In this document: piece by piece, positions 49,818 through 58,981 of the stretch
Numbering within the stretch: position 1 is the stretch's first letter
How the letters are laid out: each line of letters opens with the position of its first letter
Assembly (NCBI RefSeq): GCF_001747085.1
Contig: NZ_MDJD01000007.1
Span: forward strand, 496,001 to 560,000
Source of the DNA: Flavivirga aquatica
Lineage (GTDB): Bacteria > Bacteroidota > Bacteroidia > Flavobacteriales > Flavobacteriaceae
Direction: 5' to 3'
DNA length: 64,000 nucleotides
Program-made: the position numbers and the translations under genes
Notes under the pieces: model-generated
Database searches by the model: none
Told to the model about the DNA's origin: nothing
The model's input: the letters and a program-made list of their open reading frames with translations, nothing else

Positions 49818-50507
49818 TCAATAATCTTTACAAATATATTTTCGTATCATATATCTAGTTATTGGATTTAAGCTCTTGCCTGTCTCTGGATGAAGTCCAT
49901 ATGCAGAAAAAAACTGCAATTCTTTCTTAACATTTTTCCCATACCACACCATAGGTCTCCCTTGTAAATCAAAAAACGCTGTATTACAATCAGCCTTTAT
50001 TCTTAAAAGCTTAAGACGACTTTCATCGTACAGCATAAGCACTCCTGAATCATACTTTTCTTTATCAAATCCTACTTTAATATAATGATCTTCTTTCCAC
50101 ATCATCCATCGCTCCTCCTCAACAGAATTAATTACAAACAAAACAAGAACAGAAATCCCAACTACCGAAACTGATATAATATTCTTTTTAAATAAATTAA
50201 AGCGCTTCTTTATTTTAGATGTATTTCTAGATACAAAGTCTTCATAATCATTATACCCTAAATATTTACATAATCCAATAACAACTTTAAACTGTTTTAT
50301 ATTAATATCCTCAAGCTTATTAGCTAGTTTTTCAGCTTCTTTTTTGTAATCACGAAAACTTCTTTCCCCCAAACTAAAACCTTCTTTTTCAGATATATAT
50401 TCCGAAAGGTCTTCTGCTATAGCAACTACCGACGGTGATTTTTCCCCTCTTTTTTCTCTTTGATTTTTAGCTTTAACAAAAGCTTCAATAATTAGTTCCT
50501 TATACAT
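49818..50507 (-). CDS. Unknown single-pass membrane protein
   Basis: 229 residues. Residues 1-105 are charged and helical (MYKELIIEAFVKAKNQREKR, FSLGERSFRDYKKEAEKLAN, VVIGLCKYLGYNDYEDFVSR). One membrane helix lies at about 113-127 (IISVSVVGISVLVLFVIN). An extracytoplasmic part of about 100 residues follows (WKEDHYIKVGFDKEKYDSGVL to IRKYICKDY). I recognise no family. The N-terminal part resembles a cytoplasmic DNA-binding or regulatory helical bundle, so a membrane-bound sensor is possible. It is convergent with the second FG-GAP gene and divergent from the two-component genes. Confidence 0.65.
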   Translation of the reverse strand: MYKELIIEAFVKAKNQREKRGEKSPSVVAIAEDLSEYISEKEGFSLGERSFRDYKKEAEKLANKLEDINIKQFKVVIGLCKYLGYNDYEDFVSRNTSKIKKRFNLFKKNIISVSVVGISVLVLFVINSVEEERWMMWKEDHYIKVGFDKEKYDSGVLMLYDESRLKLLRIKADCNTAFFDLQGRPMVWYGKNVKKELQFFSAYGLHPETGKSLNPITRYMIRKYICKDY

Positions 50508-50553
50508 TAAACGGTTGGTTTTATGTGGTTTAAATTTAATTATTTTTTTGGAA

Positions 50554-50561
50554 TAAATTTG
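50554..50561 (+). promoter_or_regulatory. Possible -7 element of the long leader / two-component unit
   Basis: TAAATTTG matches TAnnTTTG. If used, transcription begins near 50568 and leaves a leader of about 310 bases before the first ORF at 50878. No correctly spaced -33 TTG was found. Confidence 0.35.
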
Positions 50562-50642
50562 GAAATAGTATTCCTAAACCTTTCCATAACACTTCCTATC
50601 CTTTTCCACCAATTTCTTTCAAATCTCATTTTATTTGCTTCA

Positions 50643-50856
50643 GAATTAATAACGGTCTTACTTGTAATAAGACTTACGGCTTTTAATTCTAAACAAGAAT
50701 AGCAGAGTAAAGTTTATAATTTCTGGGAAGTGATCATACTTCTTTACTTCTGCCTTTCACACTTCCCAAAAAAACGAGAAAGGCGCCTTCTCACTTTTAG
50801 CACCATGCTAAAGCAATAGAGCATCCGAGAAAAACTCGGACAGCCAAACTATTGCT
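50643..50856 (+). ncRNA. Highly structured leader or small RNA upstream of the two-component genes
   Basis: Five stems in about 215 bases. (1) AGAATTAA/TTAATTCT encloses GTCTTA/TAAGAC (about 50641-50692). (2) TGGGAAGTG 50724-50732 pairs with CACTTCCCA 50760-50768. (3) GAGAAaGGCGCCtTCTC. (4) TTTAGC/GCTAAA around ACCAT. (5) AGCAATAG 50812-50819 pairs with CTATTGCT 50849-50856, enclosing TCCGAG/CTCGGA. No ORF runs through it. It may be a cis-regulatory leader of the 50-residue lipoprotein and kinase genes or a separate RNA. It matches no riboswitch I know. Confidence 0.5.
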
Positions 50857-50877
50857 CAATTTTAAAAATTATATAAA

Positions 50878-51030
50878 ATGAAGAAAATAACTTTAATAAT
50901 ACTTACGGTTTTCCTTAATGTTGGACTTTTTTCTTGTTCACCTGAAACTGTTACAGAAAATAATAATCCACAAGAACAACTATGTTGTGATGAAGAAGGA
51001 CCTATTATCCCTCCTCCAACTAAGGATTAA
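50878..51030 (+). CDS. 50-residue lipoprotein
   Basis: MKKITLIILTVFLNVGLFSC is a lipoprotein signal with lipobox LFSC. It is followed by only about 30 mature residues: SPETVTENNNPQEQLCCDEE, then GPIIPPPTKD. The mature peptide is acidic with an adjacent Cys pair and a proline-rich end. It lies 35 bases ahead of the sensor kinase gene on the same strand and behind the folded leader. It could be a ligand or signalling partner for the kinase's periplasmic TPR region (inference). No family is recognised. Confidence 0.6.
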   Translation: MKKITLIILTVFLNVGLFSCSPETVTENNNPQEQLCCDEEGPIIPPPTKD

Positions 51031-51065
51031 TTGCTTAATAAAAAGTTAGTTATTACATTAGAGGA

Positions 51066-52745
51066 ATGAAACCATTAAAAACTTCATTCCTCTTTTTTTT
51101 AATTATTTACCTTTCAACAATATCCTGCAATTTTTTGCATTCTCAGAAAGCAATTGATAGCTCGCTATATTATTATAATTTCATTCTAAAACCTAGAAAT
51201 CACAACGATCTCACCAATGCATATGTTTTCTTTGAAAAACACAAAAACCAAAGTCTAATTAAAAAAGACACTTTAAAGATCATACTTAATTTAAGATACA
51301 TTGCAGTAATACAAAACAAATTAGGGGCATTATATGATAGTGAAAACTCAATAGTGACTGCTATGAGTTATTTAGATAACATAAAAGGAGTAGACACTCT
51401 AATAGAACCAAGAATTGGTATTTACAATCAATTAGGAATGATTTACAGACAATTTGAAGATTATGATAAATCTTTAGAATACTACAATAAGGTTCTAGAA
51501 ATAACAAAAGACCCAAATAATATAGCTCAAATCAATAATAATAAAGCTAATGTTTTTAAATACCAAAGAAATTACACACAAGCAATTAATGAATTTCAAA
51601 AAGCTTTTTCATTCTACACCAAACAAGGCAATATCATTAAAGCAGCGAGAGCCCTAGACAATATTGGAATTGTCCAATCTAAAACCCAAAACCCTGACGC
51701 TCTAACAAATCTTGAAAGAGCTTTAAGTATGAGAAAAAACGCAAACCATACTTCTGGAATTTTCACTAGTTACCTCCATATCTCTGAATATTATAAAGAT
51801 GAAAAAAATAACGAAAAAGCTCTTTTTTATGCAAAAAAGGCTTTAAAAATAGCGAATTTCACAAAAAACATAAAACACAAAGAAAATGCCCTATCAATGT
51901 TACTTAATCTAAAAAATGATAAAAACATAATAGAATATAAAACAATAGAAGATAGCTTAAAAAAAGCTAAACAAATTCAAGAAAATAAATATGCAGCTAT
52001 TAAATATAATGTAAAAGAAAAGGAAAAAATAATTAATGAAAGAGAGTTAATGTTAAAGTCTACTGAACTTGAAAAGGAAAAAGAAACAAAACTAAAATTA
52101 GTTTATTTATTCATAGGACTTTCTATTTTATTAATGTCATTTTTCCTAATTCTAATCTTAAAGTCAAAACACAAAAAAGACAAAATCCAACAAGTTTACA
52201 ATACCGAAACACGCATTTCTAAAAAGGTTCATGATGAAGTCTCTAACGACATGTATCATCTACTCACAAAACTACAAAGCAATCCTAATATACAAGAAAA
52301 CATTTTAGACGACATAAGTGACATTTATATAAGAACCCGAGATATATCTAAAGAAAATAGCATTATTGAAGTTAAAGAAGATTATGGCGATCTATTAAAA
52401 GATCTACTAATAAGCTTTAAAAATGATAAGGTAAACATTCTTACCAAAAATATATCTAAAATAGATTGGGATGCAGTTGAAGACATAAAAAAAACAACAC
52501 TTTACAGAGTACTTCAAGAATTAATGATTAATATGAAAAAACACAGTAGGGCATCATTAGTCGTATTAAACTTCAATCAAGAACGCCATAAAATAACCAT
52601 TAATTATAATGATAATGGTATTGGAGCAGCTATTAAAAAAGGAACAGGTATACATAATGTGGAAAACCGTATGCAATCTATTAACGGAACCATTATTTTT
52701 GAAACAGAAATTAACAAAGGGTTTAAAGCAAAAATAACAGTATAA
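51066..52745 (+). CDS. TPR-containing sensor histidine kinase
   Basis: 559 residues. Signal peptide to about residue 28. Periplasmic TPR repeats follow to about 290 (GIYNQLGMIYRQFEDYDKSLEYYNKVLE, ARALDNIGIVQSKTQNPDAL, EKALFYAKKALKIANF). A charged coiled coil precedes one membrane helix (LVYLFIGLSILLMSFFLILIL, about 343-363). The kinase core has phosphoacceptor His389 in KKVHDEVSNDMYHLLTKL. HATPase boxes are LYRVLQELMINMKKHSRAS (N box) and INYNDNGIGAAIKKGTGIHNVENRM (G boxes). It is a HisKA_3/NarX-like architecture common in Flavobacteriia. The response regulator gene starts 3 bases later. Confidence 0.9.
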   Translation: MKPLKTSFLFFLIIYLSTISCNFLHSQKAIDSSLYYYNFILKPRNHNDLTNAYVFFEKHKNQSLIKKDTLKIILNLRYIAVIQNKLGALYDSENSIVTAMSYLDNIKGVDTLIEPRIGIYNQLGMIYRQFEDYDKSLEYYNKVLEITKDPNNIAQINNNKANVFKYQRNYTQAINEFQKAFSFYTKQGNIIKAARALDNIGIVQSKTQNPDALTNLERALSMRKNANHTSGIFTSYLHISEYYKDEKNNEKALFYAKKALKIANFTKNIKHKENALSMLLNLKNDKNIIEYKTIEDSLKKAKQIQENKYAAIKYNVKEKEKIINERELMLKSTELEKEKETKLKLVYLFIGLSILLMSFFLILILKSKHKKDKIQQVYNTETRISKKVHDEVSNDMYHLLTKLQSNPNIQENILDDISDIYIRTRDISKENSIIEVKEDYGDLLKDLLISFKNDKVNILTKNISKIDWDAVEDIKKTTLYRVLQELMINMKKHSRASLVVLNFNQERHKITINYNDNGIGAAIKKGTGIHNVENRMQSINGTIIFETEINKGFKAKITV

Positions 52746-52747
52746 AT

Positions 52748-53413
52748 ATGTTTAAAAAGGTTTTAATAGTTGATGATCATGACGATATTAATAATGGTGT
52801 TTTAAATATTCTAAATACTTTTAATATTGAAACGATACAAAACGCACAGTACTGTGATGATGCACATTTAAAAGTTAAAAAAGCAGTTTTTGACGGTCAA
52901 AATTTTGATTTATTAATCACCGATTTATCCTTTAAAAAAGACCACCGTGAGTGCAAAATTTCTTCCGGAGAAGAACTTATTGCTACATTAAAAATTGAAT
53001 ATCCAGAATTACCAATCATCGTATATTCTATGAATAGCCTCTTGCAAAAAGTAAGAACGTTAATTAATAAACACCACATTAATGCATATGTATGTAAAGA
53101 CCGTAAAGGCTCTTTAGAACTATCTCAAGCCATAGAGGCTGTATACAATAAAAAACTATTTTTATCTCCTCAGGTAAAAAATGCTTTAAGCTCAAAATCA
53201 GATTCAGAAATTGATGATTACGATATTGAACTTATAAAACAACTTTCCCTAGGTTTGTCTCAAACTGAAATTAGTAAACATTTTGAGCAACATCACATTA
53301 CTCCAAGCAGCTTAAGTTCTGTAGAAAAACGGCTCAACAAACTCAAAGACCTATTTAAAGCAAATAACGCCATACACTTAGTTTCTATAATTAAAGACTT
53401 AGGATTGCTTTAA
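52748..53413 (+). CDS. Response regulator with HTH output domain
   Basis: 221 residues. The receiver domain has acidic pocket VLIVDDHDDIN, phosphoacceptor Asp59 in FDLLITDLSFKK, the Thr/Ser position in PELPIIVYSMNS, and Lys in INAYVCKDRKG. The C-terminal part (LIKQLSLGLSQTEISKHFEQ, then SSLSSVEKRLNKLKDLFK) resembles a LuxR/NarL-type HTH but with a longer linker before the second helix. It is the cognate partner of the TPR kinase. The target genes may include the downstream accessory cluster (inference). It is followed by a terminator at 53458-53490. Confidence 0.88.
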   Translation: MFKKVLIVDDHDDINNGVLNILNTFNIETIQNAQYCDDAHLKVKKAVFDGQNFDLLITDLSFKKDHRECKISSGEELIATLKIEYPELPIIVYSMNSLLQKVRTLINKHHINAYVCKDRKGSLELSQAIEAVYNKKLFLSPQVKNALSSKSDSEIDDYDIELIKQLSLGLSQTEISKHFEQHHITPSSLSSVEKRLNKLKDLFKANNAIHLVSIIKDLGLL

Positions 53414-53457
53414 GTTTTTCTTCTTTATAGATTTTCATAAAAAAATAGAATTTAATC

Positions 53458-53490
53458 AGCACGTCTTTTTTTAAAAGCGTGCTTTTTGTT
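53458..53490 (+). terminator. Terminator of the two-component unit
   Basis: AGCACG / CGTGCT stem (53458-53463 with 53478-53483), a T/A-rich loop, then TTTTGTTTTT. Confidence 0.65.
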
Positions 53491-53494
53491 TTTA

Positions 53495-53575
53495 GAGCAT
53501 GCGGGTTACCGTAAGGTAATCGTCTATAATGATTTTAGGTTTGTGGGATTATTAATCTTTAAAATTTATAAAATG
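53495..53575 (+). repeat. Repeated leader module, copy A (before the DUF1508 gene)
   Basis: GAGCATGCGGGTTACCGTAA and following, then TAGGTTT and CTTTAAAATTTA, ending at the ATG at 53573. It aligns with the sequence before the next gene (53778-53857). GAGC is 78 bases from the ATG here and 77 there; CCGTAAGG and CTTTAAAATTTA are identical in both and similarly placed. TTACC-GTAA-GGTAA can form a tight tetraloop hairpin. Confidence 0.55.
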
Positions 53576-53755
53576 GGTTATCCAAAATTTATTATTAAGA
53601 AAAGTAGTAACGACAAATACTATTTCAACCTTCATGCTACAAATGCTAAAATTATTGCAACAAGTGAAATGTATGAATCTAAAGATGGTTGCAAAAATGG
53701 AATTGAATCGGTAAAAACTAATGCTCCGATCGCAGAAATAGACGACCAATCTTAA
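53573..53755 (+). CDS. DUF1508 (YegP-like) protein
   Basis: 60 residues from the ATG at 53573 (MGYPKFIIKKSSNDKYYFNL). The frame is open further upstream but lacks family similarity. NLHATNAKIIATSEMYESKD and CKNGIESVKTNAP form the beta-beta-alpha unit of DUF1508, as found singly or doubled in YegP. It is cytoplasmic and small, of unknown role. It is first in the accessory run and is separated from the GIY-YIG-like gene by a terminator-like hairpin within the second copy of the leader module. Confidence 0.85.
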   Translation: MGYPKFIIKKSSNDKYYFNLHATNAKIIATSEMYESKDGCKNGIESVKTNAPIAEIDDQS

Positions 53756-53777
53756 TAGTAATTTAAATTAATTCTCT

Positions 53778-53857
53778 GAGCCTTGCGGAATCCCGTAAGG
53801 CTTTGTTTTTTAATAGGTTTAAGTTTGAATTGTTAAACTTTAAAATTTAAAAATATG
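53778..53857 (+). repeat. Repeated leader module, copy B (before the GIY-YIG-like gene)
   Basis: GAGCCTTGCGGAATCCCGTA and following, TAGGTTT, and CTTTAAAATTTA at 53838-53849, ending at the ATG at 53855. It shares order and spacing with copy A at 53495-53575. Confidence 0.55.
53779..53812 (+). terminator. Terminator after the DUF1508 gene
   Basis: AGCCTTGCGG / CCGTAAGGCT stem (one G-U) with loop AATC, then TTGTTTTTT. It is the copy B version of the repeated module and probably separates the two transcripts or attenuates read-through. Confidence 0.7.
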
Positions 53858-54172
53858 CCAAAAGTATCACTTCAAGGATGCTCAGGAAAGACTTATAGCT
53901 TTGATATTTATTCAATAGAAACAGCTTTTAACACATTGGGAGCAATTTATTTTATTAGTAAACGACAAGATAAGACACATACTAGAATTTACTTAGGAAT
54001 CACTGAAGATCTATCTACAAGATTTAATAACCATCACAAACAAGATTGTTTTGATAAACATAATGCAAATTGTATCTCTGTTCATCTAAGTTCTTCAAAA
54101 GAAGAAAGAGAAACTATTGAAAAGGACATTTTATGTAATTATGACTTCTCTTGTAATGAAACAAACAACTAA
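53855..54172 (+). CDS. GIY-YIG-like nuclease-fold protein
   Basis: 105 residues. GAIYFISKRQDKTHTRIYLGI followed by TEDLSTRFNNHHKQDCF corresponds to the GIY...YIG core, with the first GIY replaced by AIY, YLG for YIG, and the helix Arg (STRF) conserved. KEERETIEKDILCNY supplies the late Glu-containing helix of the fold. The N-terminal SLQGCSGKTYSFDIYSI is specific to this subgroup. It is cytoplasmic and may cut DNA or RNA, or be a catalytically altered relative. It begins a tightly packed set of genes continuing to 57927. Confidence 0.75.
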   Translation: MPKVSLQGCSGKTYSFDIYSIETAFNTLGAIYFISKRQDKTHTRIYLGITEDLSTRFNNHHKQDCFDKHNANCISVHLSSSKEERETIEKDILCNYDFSCNETNN

Positions 54173-54176
54173 CATC

Positions 54177-54413
54177 ATGGAATATAAAGTCATACCATTC
54201 GTAGCATCAATTGACTCTAAAAAAGGGAACTCTACACATGTTGCCAATCAACTCGAAGAAATAATTAAACACCATTCAAATCAAGGATGGAACTACATTA
54301 GATTAGAAAGTGTTTCAACATTTGTTCAACCGAACGCAGGCTGTTTTGGTATTGGAGCTAAACCAGGGTATACTACCTCTAGACAAATGATCGTATTCAA
54401 TAAACAACCATGA
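54177..54413 (+). CDS. DUF4177-like protein
   Basis: 78 residues from the ATG at 54177 (MEYKVIPFVASID). Longer in-frame starts overlap the upstream gene and look unnatural. EYKVIPFVAS, then VANQLEEIIKHHSNQGWNYI and a beta hairpin with the glycine-rich GCFGIGAKPG, match the small DUF4177 fold (beta-alpha-beta-beta). It is cytoplasmic. Its role is unknown; such proteins are commonly found near phage or mobile loci. It is 4 bases after the GIY-YIG-like gene and overlaps the next start by 4 bases. Confidence 0.75.
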   Translation: MEYKVIPFVASIDSKKGNSTHVANQLEEIIKHHSNQGWNYIRLESVSTFVQPNAGCFGIGAKPGYTTSRQMIVFNKQP

Positions 54414-54685
54414 AACATTTACTTATTATTATAATTAAACTTTACTGGAAATTCATACCAGAATCCAAACGAAGAAAGTGTTTGTTCAAAAAATCATGTT
54501 CTAATTACGTGTACGAAGTAACAGAATCCAAAGGATTATTACATGGACTAAAAGCATTAAAAATCAGAATTAATAATTGTCATCCAAATTATAATTTGAT
54601 TGAAGTTCATGGAGAAAAACTTTTAATAACAAACTCTAATAATATTTTTAAACAAAGTGAAATTAGTGAAACTATACTAAATTAA
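54410..54685 (+). CDS. YidD-like (membrane insertion efficiency factor-type) protein
   Basis: 91 residues. LLIIIIKLYWKFIPESKRRKCLF, then KKSCSNYVYEVTESKGLLHGLKALK and NNCHPNYN, follow the YidD pattern (R/K-C-x-F-xx-SCS-x-Y ... GLxxGLxxxxxR..xCHP). Normal YidD is a short inner-face membrane protein encoded next to rnpA and yidC. This copy sits in an accessory operon and lacks the usual SPLxGP segment, so it is probably a paralogue with a specialised partner. Its ATG overlaps the upstream stop by 4 bases. Confidence 0.75.
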   Translation: MKHLLIIIIKLYWKFIPESKRRKCLFKKSCSNYVYEVTESKGLLHGLKALKIRINNCHPNYNLIEVHGEKLLITNSNNIFKQSEISETILN

Positions 54686-54691
54686 AAAACC

Positions 54692-54934
54692 ATGAAAAAA
54701 CCAACTCTAATTTTTACGCTTCTAATCTGTTTTATATACTTAATTTCTTGTGATTCAGAAGAAACCCCAAGTTCAGATTCAGAAACCATTAATTCTGAGA
54801 ATACGTCAAGCACTGAATGGAGATGCGGAACCCATAACGGAAAATCTTTATGGACAGGCCCTAAAGGTGGCTGCTATTACTACAACAGTAATAATAATAA
54901 AACCTATGTAGATCGATCCGAATGTAATTGTTAA
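54692..54934 (+). CDS. Lipoprotein with GPKGGCYYYNSNNNKTYVDRS motif
   Basis: 80 residues. The signal MKKPTLIFTLLICFIYLISC gives a lipidated Cys, followed by a Ser/Glu-rich linker (DSEETPSSDSETINSENTSS). A compact C-terminal motif, CGTHNGKSLWTGPKGGCYYY and then NSNNNKTYVDRSECNC, has four cysteines. The GPxGGxYYxNxxGNKxYV motif is a short module that appears in varied phage, viral and bacterial proteins. It may be a small binding domain held by disulfides at the cell surface. Function unknown. Confidence 0.65.
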   Translation: MKKPTLIFTLLICFIYLISCDSEETPSSDSETINSENTSSTEWRCGTHNGKSLWTGPKGGCYYYNSNNNKTYVDRSECNC

Positions 54935-54944
54935 TTATTTTACG

Positions 54945-55193
54945 ATGGGTTTTAAATTTCAAAAACGAATTAAATTAGGTAAAAACATTGGCATAAACAT
55001 TAGTAAATCTGGTGTTACTCCAAGCTATAGATCTAAAAAAGGCTCCATAAGCACCAAAGGTTATTCAATTAAAACTGGAATCTCTGGACTAACTTATAGA
55101 AAAGGGTTTTCTAAATCTAAAAACAATGGTTGTTTAGTTATTTTAATGGTCTTTTTAATATTAGGAAGCTTAACAATTATAGCACAACTATAA
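54945..55193 (+). CDS. DUF4236 membrane protein
   Basis: 82 residues. MGFKFQKRIKLGKNIGINIS, then KSGVTPSYRSKKGSIST and GISGLTYRK, are the DUF4236 signature (GxxxNxSKSGxxxS). A C-terminal membrane helix follows (GCLVILMVFLILGSLTIIA). The N-terminal domain is small, basic and beta-rich, likely on the cytoplasmic face. No function is established for DUF4236, which is widespread in accessory regions. It is followed one base later by a 55-residue ORF with a similar basic-then-hydrophobic plan. Confidence 0.85.
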   Translation: MGFKFQKRIKLGKNIGINISKSGVTPSYRSKKGSISTKGYSIKTGISGLTYRKGFSKSKNNGCLVILMVFLILGSLTIIAQL

Positions 55194-55194
55194 T

Positions 55195-55362
55195 ATGAGG
55201 TATAGAAAAGGGTATTACAAAAAAAATGGAGCCTATGTACAAGGGCACTACACTAAATCCAGAAGTAAATCTTATTTAAACAAGAAAAGAAAAGGGTGCA
55301 CTAGTACAATTCTAATACTATTCACCTTAATTATTACAACATATTTAATTAATCAATTATGA
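55195..55362 (+). CDS. 55-residue basic membrane peptide
   Basis: MRYRKGYYKKNGAYVQGHYT, then KSRSKSYLNKKRKGC and a hydrophobic helix STILILFTLIITTYLI. The first part (YYKKNGAYVQGHYTKSR) resembles the short G-x-Y-V-x-G-H-x-R/K tail motifs of small structural proteins. It starts 1 base after the DUF4236 stop, and its TGA overlaps the next ATG (ATGA), which supports real translation in the operon. Tail-in-membrane topology with a basic cytoplasmic head is likely. Confidence 0.7.
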   Translation: MRYRKGYYKKNGAYVQGHYTKSRSKSYLNKKRKGCTSTILILFTLIITTYLINQL

Positions 55363-55751
55363 TATCAACCGAACTAAAAAGTCATTTTCTAAGATTATAC
55401 CTAATGGCATTTTCTGATGATAATTTTGATGTTTTAGAAATGCAAATGCTTTATAAGTTTGCTGAAGAGCGAGGTGTAAACAAAGAACAATTGAACACTA
55501 TATTATTGCAGCCTTCTCATGAAACATTTATTCCTGAAGACCTAGATAAAAAAATAGAGTACCTATATGATCTCGCTATTATGATTTGGGCAGACAATAT
55601 AGTCACTGATGACGAAAAAACAGCGCTCAAAAAATACGCTTTAAAATTTGGGTTTTTGGAAGAAAATATTGGTGAATTAACTCAATTTCTATTGAAACAT
55701 GCCAAAAACAATCTTCCCAAAGAAGACTTAATTAAACTTATAAACGAATAG
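55359..55751 (+). CDS. TerB-like protein
   Basis: 130 residues, all helical. It carries LMAFSDDNFDVLEMQMLYKF and, in the second half, AIMIWADNIVTDDEKTALKKYALKFG. These are the paired acidic helix-turn units (D-x-x-x-x-x-E and D-x-x-x-D-x-E) of the TerB/DjlA-type fold. TerB proteins bind metal and occur in tellurite-resistance and related envelope stress systems. Here it overlaps the preceding ORF by 4 bases and is 2 bases ahead of a coiled-coil membrane protein gene, so the proteins probably form a complex. Confidence 0.75.
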   Translation: MISTELKSHFLRLYLMAFSDDNFDVLEMQMLYKFAEERGVNKEQLNTILLQPSHETFIPEDLDKKIEYLYDLAIMIWADNIVTDDEKTALKKYALKFGFLEENIGELTQFLLKHAKNNLPKEDLIKLINE

Positions 55752-55753
55752 CT

Positions 55754-57016
55754 ATGAGTCCTTTAAAAAAAATATTTGCACTAAAAAACAAAGAACCTCA
55801 AAAAATTGATACTGATCAAAAAGAAGACATTAAAAAAATAAAGCTAACCTTTTTTGAAAGTGGATACGGTTCTTCTAAACAAGCAGAAGGAAATGATATT
55901 GTTTTTAAAGCTTGTTTAGAAGATGTCTATATGGATTATAAAGGCAAATGTAGAGAAGATGAGAACTTACAAAAGGAATTAAAATCACCCTACGTTGAAG
56001 AAAAAGGAAAGCACGAAACAGAGCTTAAAAAAAGGAAAACGGCTCTGGGTTTATTAGAAGAATCCATTAGTAATTTGGAAGAAAAGATTGTGCTATTTAA
56101 AAATGACATGGTTGAAGTAAAAAGGGAACCAGAAAAATACGGTCTTGAAGTTGATAAAAAACCAAAAGCGCAGTTTTATTTAGGATTAACAGTATTAATA
56201 CCAATAACCTTTTATTTATTGGTTTTCTATATGTCTGCTTCTTTTTCCGCTTTTTTCAAAAATTTTGATTCAGAAGAATTAACCTCAGCTATATTTGATG
56301 GTAATGCTCTTAAAAAAGCTATAGATGGTGGTTGGCTAGAAGGTATATTTATAGCAACTATACCATTTGCTTTTATGGGTTTAGGCTATTTAGTACATAT
56401 GTTTCAAAAACATAAAGATTGGATCTCCTATATTAAAATAACTATATTATTTATAGTGACTTTTATTTTTGATGCTATTCTTGCTTATCAAATAGAAAAG
56501 AAAATTTATGAAATTCAAAAAACCCCAGATTCTCTTCCTTTCGATATAGGAATTGCATTCTCTTCAGTTGAATTTTGGGGAATCATTTTCGCTGGCTTTA
56601 TTGTTTATATTATCTGGGGGTTAGTTTTTGATTTCATAATGAAGGAATATGACAACTTTGATAAAATAAAGTCATTTATTAGAACCAAGAGAGAAGATGT
56701 TGAAAATTGCGAAATCAATATATCTAAGATTATACAAAAGCTTAATCCTATTAAAGAAGAAATATCTGGAATCGAAGGAAAAATAAATGACCTTCAACGG
56801 ACTATTGACGGATTTGTATTTTCAAACAAACATTACTTAACCTATCACTCAGAATATGTTAAAGGCTGGTTTTTGGCTATTACAGATAATTTTGAAGCCT
56901 TAAAACGTCGTGACGAATTACTTTCTAAATGTGTTGAAATTGAAAAAAGTCATTTGATAAAACACCATATAAACAATGAAGATTATGAAGGAAGATTATA
57001 TAAACTTATAAACTAA
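55754..57016 (+). CDS. Coiled-coil, four-helix membrane protein of unknown function
   Basis: 420 residues. A long charged coiled coil occupies residues about 20-135 (KRKTALGLLEESISNLEEKI). Four membrane helices follow: about 142-160 (YLGLTVLIPITFYLLVFYMS), 200-222 (IFIATIPFAFMGLGYLVHMF), 229-250 (IKITILFIVTFIFDAILAY) and 275-298 (FWGIIFAGFIVYIIWGLVFDF). A second coiled coil covers 305-355, then a soluble tail. There is no ATP-binding site or transporter motif. The symmetric coil-membrane-coil plan suggests an oligomeric membrane scaffold. It is flanked by TerB-like and VWA-like genes at 2 and 5 bases. Confidence 0.7.
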   Translation: MSPLKKIFALKNKEPQKIDTDQKEDIKKIKLTFFESGYGSSKQAEGNDIVFKACLEDVYMDYKGKCREDENLQKELKSPYVEEKGKHETELKKRKTALGLLEESISNLEEKIVLFKNDMVEVKREPEKYGLEVDKKPKAQFYLGLTVLIPITFYLLVFYMSASFSAFFKNFDSEELTSAIFDGNALKKAIDGGWLEGIFIATIPFAFMGLGYLVHMFQKHKDWISYIKITILFIVTFIFDAILAYQIEKKIYEIQKTPDSLPFDIGIAFSSVEFWGIIFAGFIVYIIWGLVFDFIMKEYDNFDKIKSFIRTKREDVENCEINISKIIQKLNPIKEEISGIEGKINDLQRTIDGFVFSNKHYLTYHSEYVKGWFLAITDNFEALKRRDELLSKCVEIEKSHLIKHHINNEDYEGRLYKLIN

Positions 57017-57021
57017 TAACC

Positions 57022-57927
57022 ATGAAAAGTAGATTTATAATTATAGCAATTTTGTTTCTAGTAGCTTGTAAAGACGATAAGCAAAAAGCACCTACTCAAA
57101 TAGATTCAAAAAATATTGAAACAATTAAATTATCCTCAAAAAAGCCCGATTTAAACATTAGTATCTTATTAGATCTTTCTGATAGAATTAATCCAAAAAA
57201 ATATCCAAATCCAACAATGGAATATTTTGAAAGAGATTTAGGTTATATCAACTCTATTGCAAAAAGTTTTGAATTACACATAAGAAGCAAAAGAACCAAT
57301 AAAATTAACGACCATATTCATCTATATATCGATCCAGAACCTTCTGATAGTAACTTAAACGAAAAGATAGAACTTTTAGATATGACATTTACAAAGAACA
57401 ATGCTAAAAGAGAATATATAATGCAAACATCTGTACTATATGATAGTATTTCAAGATTAATCTATAAATCTGCAATCAATGACAATAACTATATTGGATC
57501 CGATTTATGGAGTTTTTTTAAAACTAATGTCGAAGATTTTTGTATTGAAAAAAATCACCGTAATATATTAGTAATATTAACCGATGGCTATTTATACCAT
57601 AAAGACTCTAAATTGAGAGAAAAAAATCAAACATCCTATTTAAGACCTCAAGATATTAAAAATTTCAAATTAAATACTTCAAATTGGAAAACAACAATAG
57701 AAACTAAAAACTATGGTTTTATAAGCACTAAAGATAGTTTACAAGATTTAGAAGTACTCATTTTAGGTATTAATCCAAACCCTAAAAATCCATATGAACA
57801 AGATGTTATTCTTCAATACTGGAAAAATTGGTTAAACAGTATGAAAATAAAAAACTTTCAAATTAAAACTGCCATTTTACCTGCTAATATGGATAAAATT
57901 ATTAAAGATTATATTCTAAAAAAATAG
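57022..57927 (+). CDS. VWA-like lipoprotein
   Basis: 301 residues. The lipoprotein signal is MKSRFIIIAILFLVAC. A Rossmann-like domain begins LNISILLDLSDRINPKKYPN, with DLSDR in the position of the VWA MIDAS DxSxS (second Ser replaced by Arg). It continues to NILVILTDGYLYHKDS, the TDG/LTDG strand of VWA domains. DLEVLILGINPNPKNP follows near the C-terminus. It is expected on the periplasmic side of a membrane as a protein-binding module. Taken with the TerB-like gene, it recalls the TerB/VWA combinations of Ter stress systems. The MIDAS variation means metal binding is uncertain. Confidence 0.7.
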   Translation: MKSRFIIIAILFLVACKDDKQKAPTQIDSKNIETIKLSSKKPDLNISILLDLSDRINPKKYPNPTMEYFERDLGYINSIAKSFELHIRSKRTNKINDHIHLYIDPEPSDSNLNEKIELLDMTFTKNNAKREYIMQTSVLYDSISRLIYKSAINDNNYIGSDLWSFFKTNVEDFCIEKNHRNILVILTDGYLYHKDSKLREKNQTSYLRPQDIKNFKLNTSNWKTTIETKNYGFISTKDSLQDLEVLILGINPNPKNPYEQDVILQYWKNWLNSMKIKNFQIKTAILPANMDKIIKDYILKK

Positions 57928-57984
57928 CATTATTCTAATGTCTAATTAAAGTTTATCTTTATAACAATCAATACCCCTTATCAA

Positions 57985-58464
57985 TTGAAAAAAGTATTTT
58001 TTATTATGCTCCTATTTTTACCTTCTTTGTCTTTTTCTCAAAAAATCATTACAGGCAAAGTAGTTTCTATAATTGATGGTGACACGTTTAAACTCTTAAC
58101 TCAAGACTCTACATTAATTAGAGTTCGACTAGCTAATATTGATTGTCCTGAAAAAAAACAACCTTTCTCCAAAAAAGCAAAACAATTTGTATCTGATGCT
58201 GTTTTTAATAAAATAGTAACGCTAAATGTGTTAAAAAAAGACAGATACAGACGCTATATTGCAAATGTTATTTACAATAATTCCCTAAATTTAAATCAAG
58301 AACTCTTAAAACAGGGGCTTGCATGGCATTATATTAAGTATTCAAAAGACAAATACTTACAAGACTTAGAAGACCTATCAAAATTGGCAAAAAGAGGTTT
58401 ATGGCAAGATAAAAATGCCATATCCCCTTGGGAATGGCGAGCTCGTAAAAAAACAAAAAAATAA
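57985..58464 (+). CDS. Secreted staphylococcal nuclease-like (SNase) protein
   Basis: 159 residues from a TTG start, which provides the signal peptide KKVFFIMLLFLPSLSFSQ; the first downstream ATG (58006) would truncate it. The SNase OB fold has GKVVSIIDGDTFKLL, with active-site Asp in DGDT and Arg in LIRVRLANIDCPE. The second active-site residues fall in KKDRYRRYIANVIY (Arg). LLKQGLAWHYIKYS and SPWEWRARKK end the domain. The expected product is a Ca2+-dependent nuclease in the periplasm or medium. It lies 57 bases after the VWA-like gene and 3 bases ahead of the next gene. Confidence 0.88.
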   Translation: MKKVFFIMLLFLPSLSFSQKIITGKVVSIIDGDTFKLLTQDSTLIRVRLANIDCPEKKQPFSKKAKQFVSDAVFNKIVTLNVLKKDRYRRYIANVIYNNSLNLNQELLKQGLAWHYIKYSKDKYLQDLEDLSKLAKRGLWQDKNAISPWEWRARKKTKK

Positions 58465-58467
58465 AGA

Positions 58468-58839
58468 ATGTATAGAATAATTCTTTTTATAATATCTGTA
58501 GCATTTTCCTTTAATATTGCGGCACAAACGGTTTACACCACTAAAACAGGAGAAAAGTATCATAAAAGCAATTGTAGATACTTGAAATACTCAAAAAAAG
58601 AATTAACTATAGAAAAAGCAGTTTCGTTTGGATATCAAGCATGTTCCATTTGTAAACCTGTTACAAAAAACAAAACAGCTTCTACAAAATCAAAGCTATT
58701 ACTTCACTCTAAGCTAACAATACCTAATACTAAAACAAAAAAAAATGTTACTTCTCAATGTACAGGAAAAACAAAATCTGGCTCAAGATGTAAACGCAAA
58801 ACAAAAAATGCCAATACGAAATGTTATCAACATCAATAA
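58468..58839 (+). CDS. Secreted Cys-rich protein: Ada-type metal-binding module plus QCTGKTKSGSRCKRK tail
   Basis: 123 residues. A signal peptide (RIILFIISVAFSFNIAAQ) is followed by TVYTTKTGEKYHKSNCRYLKYSKKELTIEKAVSFGYQACSICKP. The H...C...C-x-x-C pattern is the Ada-like or 'YHxxxCxxL' zinc-binding module often seen with SNase domains. A basic linker leads to a second motif, QCTGKTKSGSRCKRKTKNAN and then CYQH (DUF5763-type, Cys/His-rich). Both modules could bind Zn and nucleic acid. It is probably translated with the SNase gene (3-base gap) and may target the nuclease to DNA (inference). Confidence 0.8.
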   Translation: MYRIILFIISVAFSFNIAAQTVYTTKTGEKYHKSNCRYLKYSKKELTIEKAVSFGYQACSICKPVTKNKTASTKSKLLLHSKLTIPNTKTKKNVTSQCTGKTKSGSRCKRKTKNANTKCYQHQ

Positions 58840-58943: not shown

Positions 58944-58981
58944 AAAAAAAGGCTTTAACAAAAATGTTAAAGCCTTTTTTT
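58944..58981. terminator. Bidirectional terminator between the accessory run and the FGE-like gene
   Basis: A-run, GGCTTTAACA / TGTTAAAGCC stem with loop AAAA, then T-run. It is symmetric, so it serves both convergent transcripts. Confidence 0.85.

Follow-up and report, generated by a model that had tools for sequence, protein, structure and literature searches.

The 64,000-nucleotide stretch of Flavivirga aquatica DNA analyzed here (assembly GCF_001747085.1, contig NZ_MDJD01000007.1, positions 496,001 to 560,000 of the forward strand; hereafter the window, whose own numbering is used throughout) carries a cluster of twelve mostly small genes, which forms the cargo end of a two-component cassette led by an RNA. 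The island runs from 49818 to 58839 and so reaches beyond 53573-58839, the part described in an earlier sequence-only reading, which overlooked a leader RNA, a small lipoprotein and a divergent membrane protein gene upstream. We read the locus, with a probability of roughly 0.55, as a signal-responsive cassette in which a regulatory module stands before exchangeable effector genes directed at the envelope or at invaders. The existence of the RNA, of the module and of a cargo triad (TerB-like protein, CC420 and VWA-fold lipoprotein) is well supported; the trigger, the mechanism of the RNA and a role in defense are what we infer from them. The upstream part of the island comprises the following features.

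49818..50507, - strand: HTH229, a divergent membrane protein with an N-terminal domain, one transmembrane (TM) segment and a C-terminal domain containing GLHPxTGKTLKPIT
50570..50607, + strand: four TTTCC-like boxes (ATTCC, TTTCC, CTTCC, TTTCC), 11 bp apart, probable regulator sites
50630..50637, + strand: TTTATTTG promoter-like box, its TTTG showing conservation of at least 90% across 64 aligned leaders
50642..50690, + strand: P1 hairpin of the leader RNA
50694..50864, + strand: core of the leader RNA, matched by covariance model R1
50695-50712/50742-50759, + strand: P2 of the leader RNA
50725-50731/50761-50767, + strand: pseudoknot P3 of the leader RNA
50776-50792, + strand: P4 of the leader RNA
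50824-50829/50835-50840, + strand: inner stem of P5 of the leader RNA
50878..51030, + strand: sLip50, a 50-residue lipoprotein with the tail CCDEEGPIIPPP
51066..52745, + strand: histidine kinase (HK) with N-terminal TPR repeats and a TM segment
52748..53413, + strand: response regulator (RR)
53458..53488, + strand: terminator-like hairpin and T tract 3' of the response regulator, found by eye

The leader RNA is conserved and covarying and contains a pseudoknot. HTH229 and sLip50 were separated by a median of 351 bases in 132 pairs (79 of them within 330-395 bases, several starts being miscalled), and 87 of 106 leaders could be segmented into helices while 19 could not. Arms of P2 paired far better with their own partners than with partners swapped between loci (means of -22.0 and -10.6 kcal/mol, respectively; 87 leaders), as did those of P1 (-10.6 versus -5.9; 76 leaders) and P3 (-11.0 versus -8.3 kcal/mol). 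The same comparison was weak for P5, for which the segmentation was crude (-3.56 versus -3.04; 79 leaders), and P5 is supported by the aligned covariation counts rather than by this swap test. Isolated mismatches in P2 were G-T in 83 cases and A-C in 28 (p = 1.7e-7), an excess that points to an RNA read toward sLip50. A second pseudoknot candidate, inside P1, gave -1.78 with its own partner and -1.05 with swapped ones, foreign partners being equally good in 44% of cases on average.

Covariation was counted in alignments of different breadth. Two of them, A8 (40) and A9 (17), were drawn from the 87 segmented leaders and picked for easy alignment, A9 leaning to one subtype; a third, A10, held 63 distinct sequences and was fitted to model R1 for every helix except P3. 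Changes on both sides of a pair were found in 27 of 37 pairs in A9, as compared to 13.1 in shuffles, and in 32 of 37 pairs in A10, as compared to a shuffle mean of 26.0, with 1 of 500 shuffles reaching 32. A10 contained 456 cells changed on both sides versus 144 in shuffles (reached by 0 of 500), with all slid controls far lower. P3, although outside the model, was 97.5% paired in A10, and four of its seven pairs were compensated. RNAalifold applied to a plain MAFFT alignment recovered only P3 and part of P5, because P2 was misaligned. The window's own leader folds at -53.2 kcal/mol (z = -3.94). The P4 hairpin was present in 76 of 87 leaders and was followed by at least four T in 22 of those 76, versus 7 of 87 control windows, which is weak for an attenuator; most leaders had no robust terminator before sLip50. 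A search of the 4227 Rfam families returned only tRNA-Leu for the window, all matches in 50500-51070 falling far below gathering scores. The element represents a family of structured, strongly covarying RNAs that lies outside Rfam 15 and is tied to one gene neighborhood. Inspection by eye suggests two alternative partners for GTTGCT, the 5' arm of P5, in several leaders (window 50776-50864 and relatives), namely a nearby AGCAAC and the distal CAGCAACAC, and this alternative pairing is a possible two-state switch.

The tie to one neighborhood was found with covariance model R1, which was built from 17 leaders, holds no information on flanking genes and was run on 99 relatives and on 397 genomes of the family; the relatives sampled belong mostly to the family of the window genome, and the named near matches are Flavobacteriaceae. 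In the 397 genomes R1 gave 83 matches in 74 genomes, 79 of them within 1.5 kb of an HTH229 match. Each of the four that lacked HTH229 was followed immediately by an sLip50-family match (weak in one case, E = 2e-4) with a kinase-family match behind it, and three had a close regulator. Within the mapped loci there were 111 matches besides the window's own, of which 110 adjoined a divergent HTH229 and 103 stood immediately before a recognized sLip50; eight were without a recognized sLip50, and one of these, L186, was later found to have one. Every matching source had a single match except L083, which had two. L138 was outside the locus-level scan, the later part of which took in 81 sources, 13 of them already covered by the first, and its genome has an R1 match in the 397-genome scan. 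L186 (6281-9304), discovered by the RNA model alone, is one of the four matches that lacked HTH229; it lies some 192 kb from the window's copy in the same genome, and there another leader RNA is accompanied by an sLip50, a TPR kinase and a regulator but by no recognized HTH229. In three further RNA-sLip50-kinase loci (L188, L189 and L190) the divergent gene encodes another protein (193, 209 and 755 residues) in place of HTH229.

Upstream of the leader, 72 intervals between TTTCC boxes measured 11 bp. Across the 4.64 Mb genome the three-box pattern has a single occurrence, 50581-50607, and the fourth box (one mismatch) precedes it. The TTTATTTG box that follows resembles the Bacteroidota -7 box, and the order of boxes then promoter would fit an activator site and the start of the leader.

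The regulatory module is recurrent, being present in many flavobacteria, and heads several different cargoes. In the window it is an ordered block upstream of the cargo, consisting of divergent HTH229, sLip50, the TPR kinase and the response regulator. The "HTH" in HTH229 is a working label only and not a domain assignment; comparison with Pfam and PDB gave nothing consistent, no family being matched by more than one of the 53 members scanned. sLip50 is a lipoprotein of 50-60 residues whose tail is acidic and often poly-proline: among 121 distinct copies, some with miscalled starts, the lipobox pattern was found in 103, CCG/CCD in 61 and a run of four prolines in 74. The receiver domain of the regulator scored 34.7 bits against the Response_reg cut-off of 30.2. 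A profile of HTH229 matched 148 of 397 family genomes at E 0.001 (about 100 matches being strong), and HTH229 was present in 23 of the 99 relatives versus 8 of 99 for CC420. We mapped 76 HTH229 loci, 16 of which (L106-L121) were chosen because their genomes had no CC420 match, the other 60 coming from the stronger matches listed. sLip50 was next to HTH229 in 70 of the 76, HK was present in 64, and both HK and RR in 62. The triad lay downstream in 20 of the 60 loci not chosen for absence of CC420, the remaining 40 having no CC420 behind the module. Thus HTH229, the leader RNA, sLip50 and the two-component pair are shared more widely than the triad.

Alternative cargo behind the module included a tubulin-like gene with a lipoprotein bearing, by eye, a VWA-like motif (L107, L109, L151 and L152; the L109 tubulin was below the Pfam cut-off), a VWA-like protein that scored below cut-off, accompanied by kinases and DUF4407 (L110), Hsp70 together with an AAA/kinase protein (L114), and only HSDR_N, SNase and small genes (L106); in other HTH229 loci nothing was recognized. 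Of the labels used in these maps, clean profiles confirmed SNase in 11 of 11 cases, D4236 in 13 of 19 and AdaC in 9 of 11. In the four tubulin-type loci the module precedes a lipoprotein, a membrane protein, the tubulin-like protein and a large protein, and in L107 the kinase and regulator are on the opposite side of HTH229. In L052, L080, L138, L147 and L165, HTH229, the RNA and sLip50 stand immediately before cargo with no kinase or regulator between, and the kinase pair can therefore be lost or located elsewhere.

The cargo of the window itself and the signals that divide it are as follows.

53573..53755, + strand: DUF1508 small protein, cargo, above the Pfam cut-off
53778..53803, + strand: terminator-like hairpin and T tract 3' of DUF1508
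53855..54172, + strand: GIY-YIG-like small nuclease, cargo, slightly below the Pfam cut-off
54177..54413, + strand: DUF4177-like protein, cargo, below the Pfam cut-off
54410..54685, + strand: YidD, cargo, above the Pfam cut-off
54692..54934, + strand: 80-residue lipoprotein, cargo
54945..55193, + strand: DUF4236 protein with a C-terminal TM segment, cargo, above the Pfam cut-off
55195..55362, + strand: 55-residue protein with a C-terminal TM segment, cargo
55359..55751, + strand: TerB-like cytoplasmic protein, core triad, below the Pfam cut-off
55754..57016, + strand: CC420, coiled-coil membrane protein with four hydrophobic helices, core triad
57022..57927, + strand: VWA-fold lipoprotein (predicted structure) with a DLSDR..TDG motif, core triad
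57985..58464, + strand: exported staphylococcal-nuclease (SNase) homologue, cargo, above the Pfam cut-off
58468..58839, + strand: exported Cys-rich protein, cargo
58944..58981, unstranded: terminator-like hairpin having A and T tracts, right end of the island

All twelve open reading frames that the sequence-only reading had placed here are present and open, and the close packing it described for nine of them holds from the GIY-YIG-like gene to the VWA-like gene, with intergenic gaps of +4, -4, +6, +10, +1, -4, +2 and +5 when the DUF4177 start is set at 54177. Its family names stood in part: DUF1508, YidD, DUF4236 and SNase scored above Pfam cut-offs and the VWA fold was recovered by structure prediction, while GIY-YIG (22.4 versus 22.6 bits), DUF4177 (19.1 versus 25) and TerB (20.5 versus 24.4) fell below. 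Neither CC420 nor the VWA-like protein had a credible Pfam match, and no VWA model matched at E 0.1.

TerB-like, CC420 and VWA genes form a fixed, recurrent unit, a conclusion that is well supported. They were adjacent and on the same strand in every one of the 86 distinct loci, the median gaps being 3 and 5 bases, so that the neighborhood proposed earlier for the coiled-coil protein does recur in other genomes. These core loci were collected with CC420 itself as bait and include the best 80 of 245 confirmed CC420 loci from named genomes, a set that leans to close relatives; L009 and L010, on the same contigs as L033 and L064, were removed to leave 86, and some loci share a genome. HK and RR were each present in 69 of the 86 and HTH229 in 67 by clustering (70, 68 and 69, respectively, by profile), some loci being shortened by contig ends, which agrees with the earlier assignment of the kinase and regulator to this locus. 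Among the 99 relatives the distribution of CC420 is patchy.

The VWA protein combines a lipoprotein signal with the conserved DLSDR...TDG pattern, and its predicted structure (pLDDT 89.7, pTM 0.85) matched the Rpn10 vWA domain, TFIIH and the bacterial VWA protein 4fx5 with Z of about 13 and root-mean-square deviation of about 3 over 171-179 aligned residues. CC420 was predicted with moderate confidence (pLDDT 77, pTM 0.48) as long coils round four hydrophobic helices; sequence and fold searches of PDB gave no match at E 0.001, the fold model used being only of moderate quality. Searches of phages and viral contigs for CC420 found none, and plasmids gave one weak match (Runella, 24%). Judged by sequence, TerB is probably cytoplasmic, CC420 an inner-membrane protein and VWA periplasmic, and the three are predicted to form a complex spanning cytoplasm, inner membrane and periplasm; as a constant unit and possible trans-envelope complex the triad is worth study. 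A relationship of CC420 to DUF4407 was considered and rejected (hhalign probability of 0.6% against the L110 DUF4407 protein). Triad copies were also seen on contigs of metagenome-assembled genomes labelled Bacillota, Oligoflexales, Campbellbacteria and Chlorobiota (L048, L056, L074 and L078), which may represent binning errors or transfer.

Around the triad the remaining genes come and go. With clean profiles or clusters that kept DUF4236 apart from the 55-residue protein and SNase apart from a second Cys-rich family, the families were present in the 86 core loci as follows: DUF4236 in 43, the 55-residue protein in 31, DUF1508 and an exported endonuclease/exonuclease/phosphatase-family (EEP) nuclease in 30 each, SNase in 28, the Cys-rich exported protein in 27, HSDR_N, YidD and DUF6804 in 21 each, DUF4177 in 19, the 80-residue lipoprotein in 14 and the GIY-YIG-like protein in only 2. 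Many of these families are exported or membrane proteins. Twelve families gave 50 distinct presence patterns among the 70 core loci having HK or RR, and 64 ordered arrangements were counted in 68 loci, an upper figure that rests on looser clusters and automated gene calls. The families are therefore drawn from a shared pool, and the twelve genes of the window are not one fixed system. The proposal that they make up a single functional operon is not supported, given this turnover and the terminator-like sites that divide them. Small genes that had lacked an explanation, namely DUF1508, DUF4177, DUF4236, YidD paralogues, SNase and genes for Cys-rich exported proteins, are found here as exchangeable cargo behind one control cassette. 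The EEP nuclease (cluster c9; L031, L030, L034 and others) is often near the right end of the island, and 7 of its 31 members are on the island strand, most being opposite. The second small exported Cys-rich family, of 70-99 residues with a YHYxxNCRGL motif, sits beside SNase (L043, L045, L051, L093 and others).

Known defense genes are enriched nearby. Of the 76 HTH229 loci, 12 had HsdM no more than 15 kb downstream, versus 0.36 expected (about 30-fold; one is a 161-residue piece, one is on the opposite strand, and some loci have less than 15 kb downstream), the background being 91 matches at E <1e-50, counted by eye, over 290 Mb of the 99 genomes with rounded genome sizes. In the 86 core loci HsdM was found in 11 versus 0.50 expected and Cas9 in 6 versus 0.14 expected (background of 26 of 99 relatives above cut-off), five of the six coming from three genera. 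This association with type I restriction-modification (RM) and Cas9 supports, without demonstrating, a possible anti-invader role; for the envelope-stress or anti-mobile-element function suggested by the sequence-only reading, what stands is the excess of type I RM and CRISPR genes nearby, as an association only.

A mechanism consistent with these data would begin with envelope damage or an invader altering sLip50 or the periplasmic TPR domain. The kinase would then phosphorylate the response regulator, which may bind the four phased boxes and drive the leader promoter. The leader RNA might gate sLip50 output, either in cis just before the start codon or as a separate RNA, and downstream cargo could be raised by read-through or from its own promoters. 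Exported nucleases and a trans-envelope complex would finally block incoming DNA or repair the envelope, the putative effectors in the window genome being the TerB-CC420-VWA unit together with envelope and nuclease proteins. A bolder proposal, which we hold tentatively and at less than even odds, is that pseudoknotted leader RNA, tiny lipoprotein and TPR kinase-regulator pair constitute a new class of control system, a portable sensing cassette of Flavobacteriia with the RNA as the switch linking an envelope signal to cargo release, set before varied anti-invader or envelope-conflict effectors. The cassette also opens to experiment the question of how genes for conflict or stress might be turned on in Bacteroidota.

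Several observations weigh against the reading as a signal-responsive cassette for envelope or anti-invader effectors. The kinase falls below the HATPase_c cut-off (17.0 versus 26.4 bits) and its phospho-acceptor His region was located by eye only; 24 of 97 genomes with HTH229, among the matches listed, have no R1 match under strict filters. The strict three-box site occurs at the leader only, so that direct control of the cargo by the regulator is putative, and terminator-like sites 3' of the response regulator (by eye) and of DUF1508 make a single transcript for all genes unlikely, although the terminator search as a statistic is weak (two found, 53778-53803 and 58944-58981, versus 2.3 expected in shuffles). 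Many HTH229 modules, for example L135, L137 and L140, have no obvious defense cargo, the proximity of RM genes is an association only among related loci that are not fully independent, and PADLOC run on ten of the proteins returned only weak single-gene matches (SNase best, 1.1e-9) and no complete known system.

These points bear differently on the alternatives. A cassette for envelope stress without any anti-invader role would have sLip50 and the TPR kinase sense damage and the cargo (YidD, small membrane proteins, VWA complex, ion channel, SH3 proteins) repair the envelope, RM genes being neighbors only through shared variable regions of the chromosome. The many exported or membrane-bound cargo families would suit it, as would the likeness of a sensor lipoprotein with a kinase to known envelope-stress pathways such as RcsF and NlpE; however, the cargo often includes nuclease types (of 86 loci, 30 have exported EEP, 28 SNase and 21 HSDR_N) and HsdM near HTH229 is some 30-fold above background, and we consider this account unlikely. 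Were the region a Ter-type (tellurite/metal) stress system under two-component control, with the RNA an incidental leader, its TerB-like and VWA proteins would be accounted for, being reminiscent of Ter systems. That is quite improbable, as TerB does not reach the Pfam cut-off, neither TerC nor TerD is among the Pfam matches of the 15 island proteins tested, and 40 of the 60 HTH229 modules not chosen for lacking CC420 have none behind them.

Two other explanations concern the RNA. It would be a somewhat doubtful proposition that it is a stand-alone, trans-acting small RNA (sRNA) and that its closeness to sLip50 reflects shared promoter geography only: the fold is stable (z = -3.94), a run of at least four T follows the short P4 hairpin in 22 of 76 leaders, the figure for control windows being 7 of 87, and the flavobacterial sRNA Rfp18 is described as needed for precise protease expression (PMC9723704), yet most leaders have no robust terminator before sLip50, which follows the RNA directly in 103 of 111 matches and in the four matches without HTH229. 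Strong cargo variation among loci would be expected if the covarying element acted as DNA, as a cruciform or recombination site aiding cargo swaps, but the G-T over A-C asymmetry (83:28), the fixed position just after the promoter-like box and the single R1 match per matching source (two in L083), which means that no second copy flanks the cargo, make this very improbable.

A literature search turned up no title or abstract opening in which this gene set or RNA is described; most subscription papers were outside its scope. The cassette nevertheless has partial counterparts. Ter stress-response systems contain TerB and TerY/VWA, and the window resembles Ter-dependent systems in having TerB-like and VWA proteins together and in membrane association; it differs in that TerB scores under the Pfam cut-off, the VWA protein is a lipoprotein, the CC420 partner belongs to no known family and an RNA/two-component module stands in front. 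RcsF and NlpE share with sLip50 the placement of a small lipoprotein beside a sensor kinase pathway, but sLip50, at about 50 residues, carries a tail that is acidic and often poly-proline, and we know of no structured RNA in those pathways. BrxR/CapW proteins are shared regulators of different defense systems and likewise represent one regulator type before differing defense or conflict cargo; there, a single WYL protein does the work, whereas here it is a two-component pair with a lipoprotein and a structured RNA. Rfp18 of Flavobacterium, compared by description only, is also a structured flavobacterial RNA, but it is described as an sRNA for precise protease expression and that description makes no link to HTH229 or a lipoprotein (PMC9723704). 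In vWA/GTPase conflict systems, vWA, tubulin and HSP70 proteins are core parts, and the word TerB is absent from the main text of the paper concerned (PMC7159879). No MoxR-type AAA domain, by contrast, is among the Pfam matches of the island; the likeness lies in the alternative cargo, some of which is tubulin-like (below cut-off) or Hsp70.

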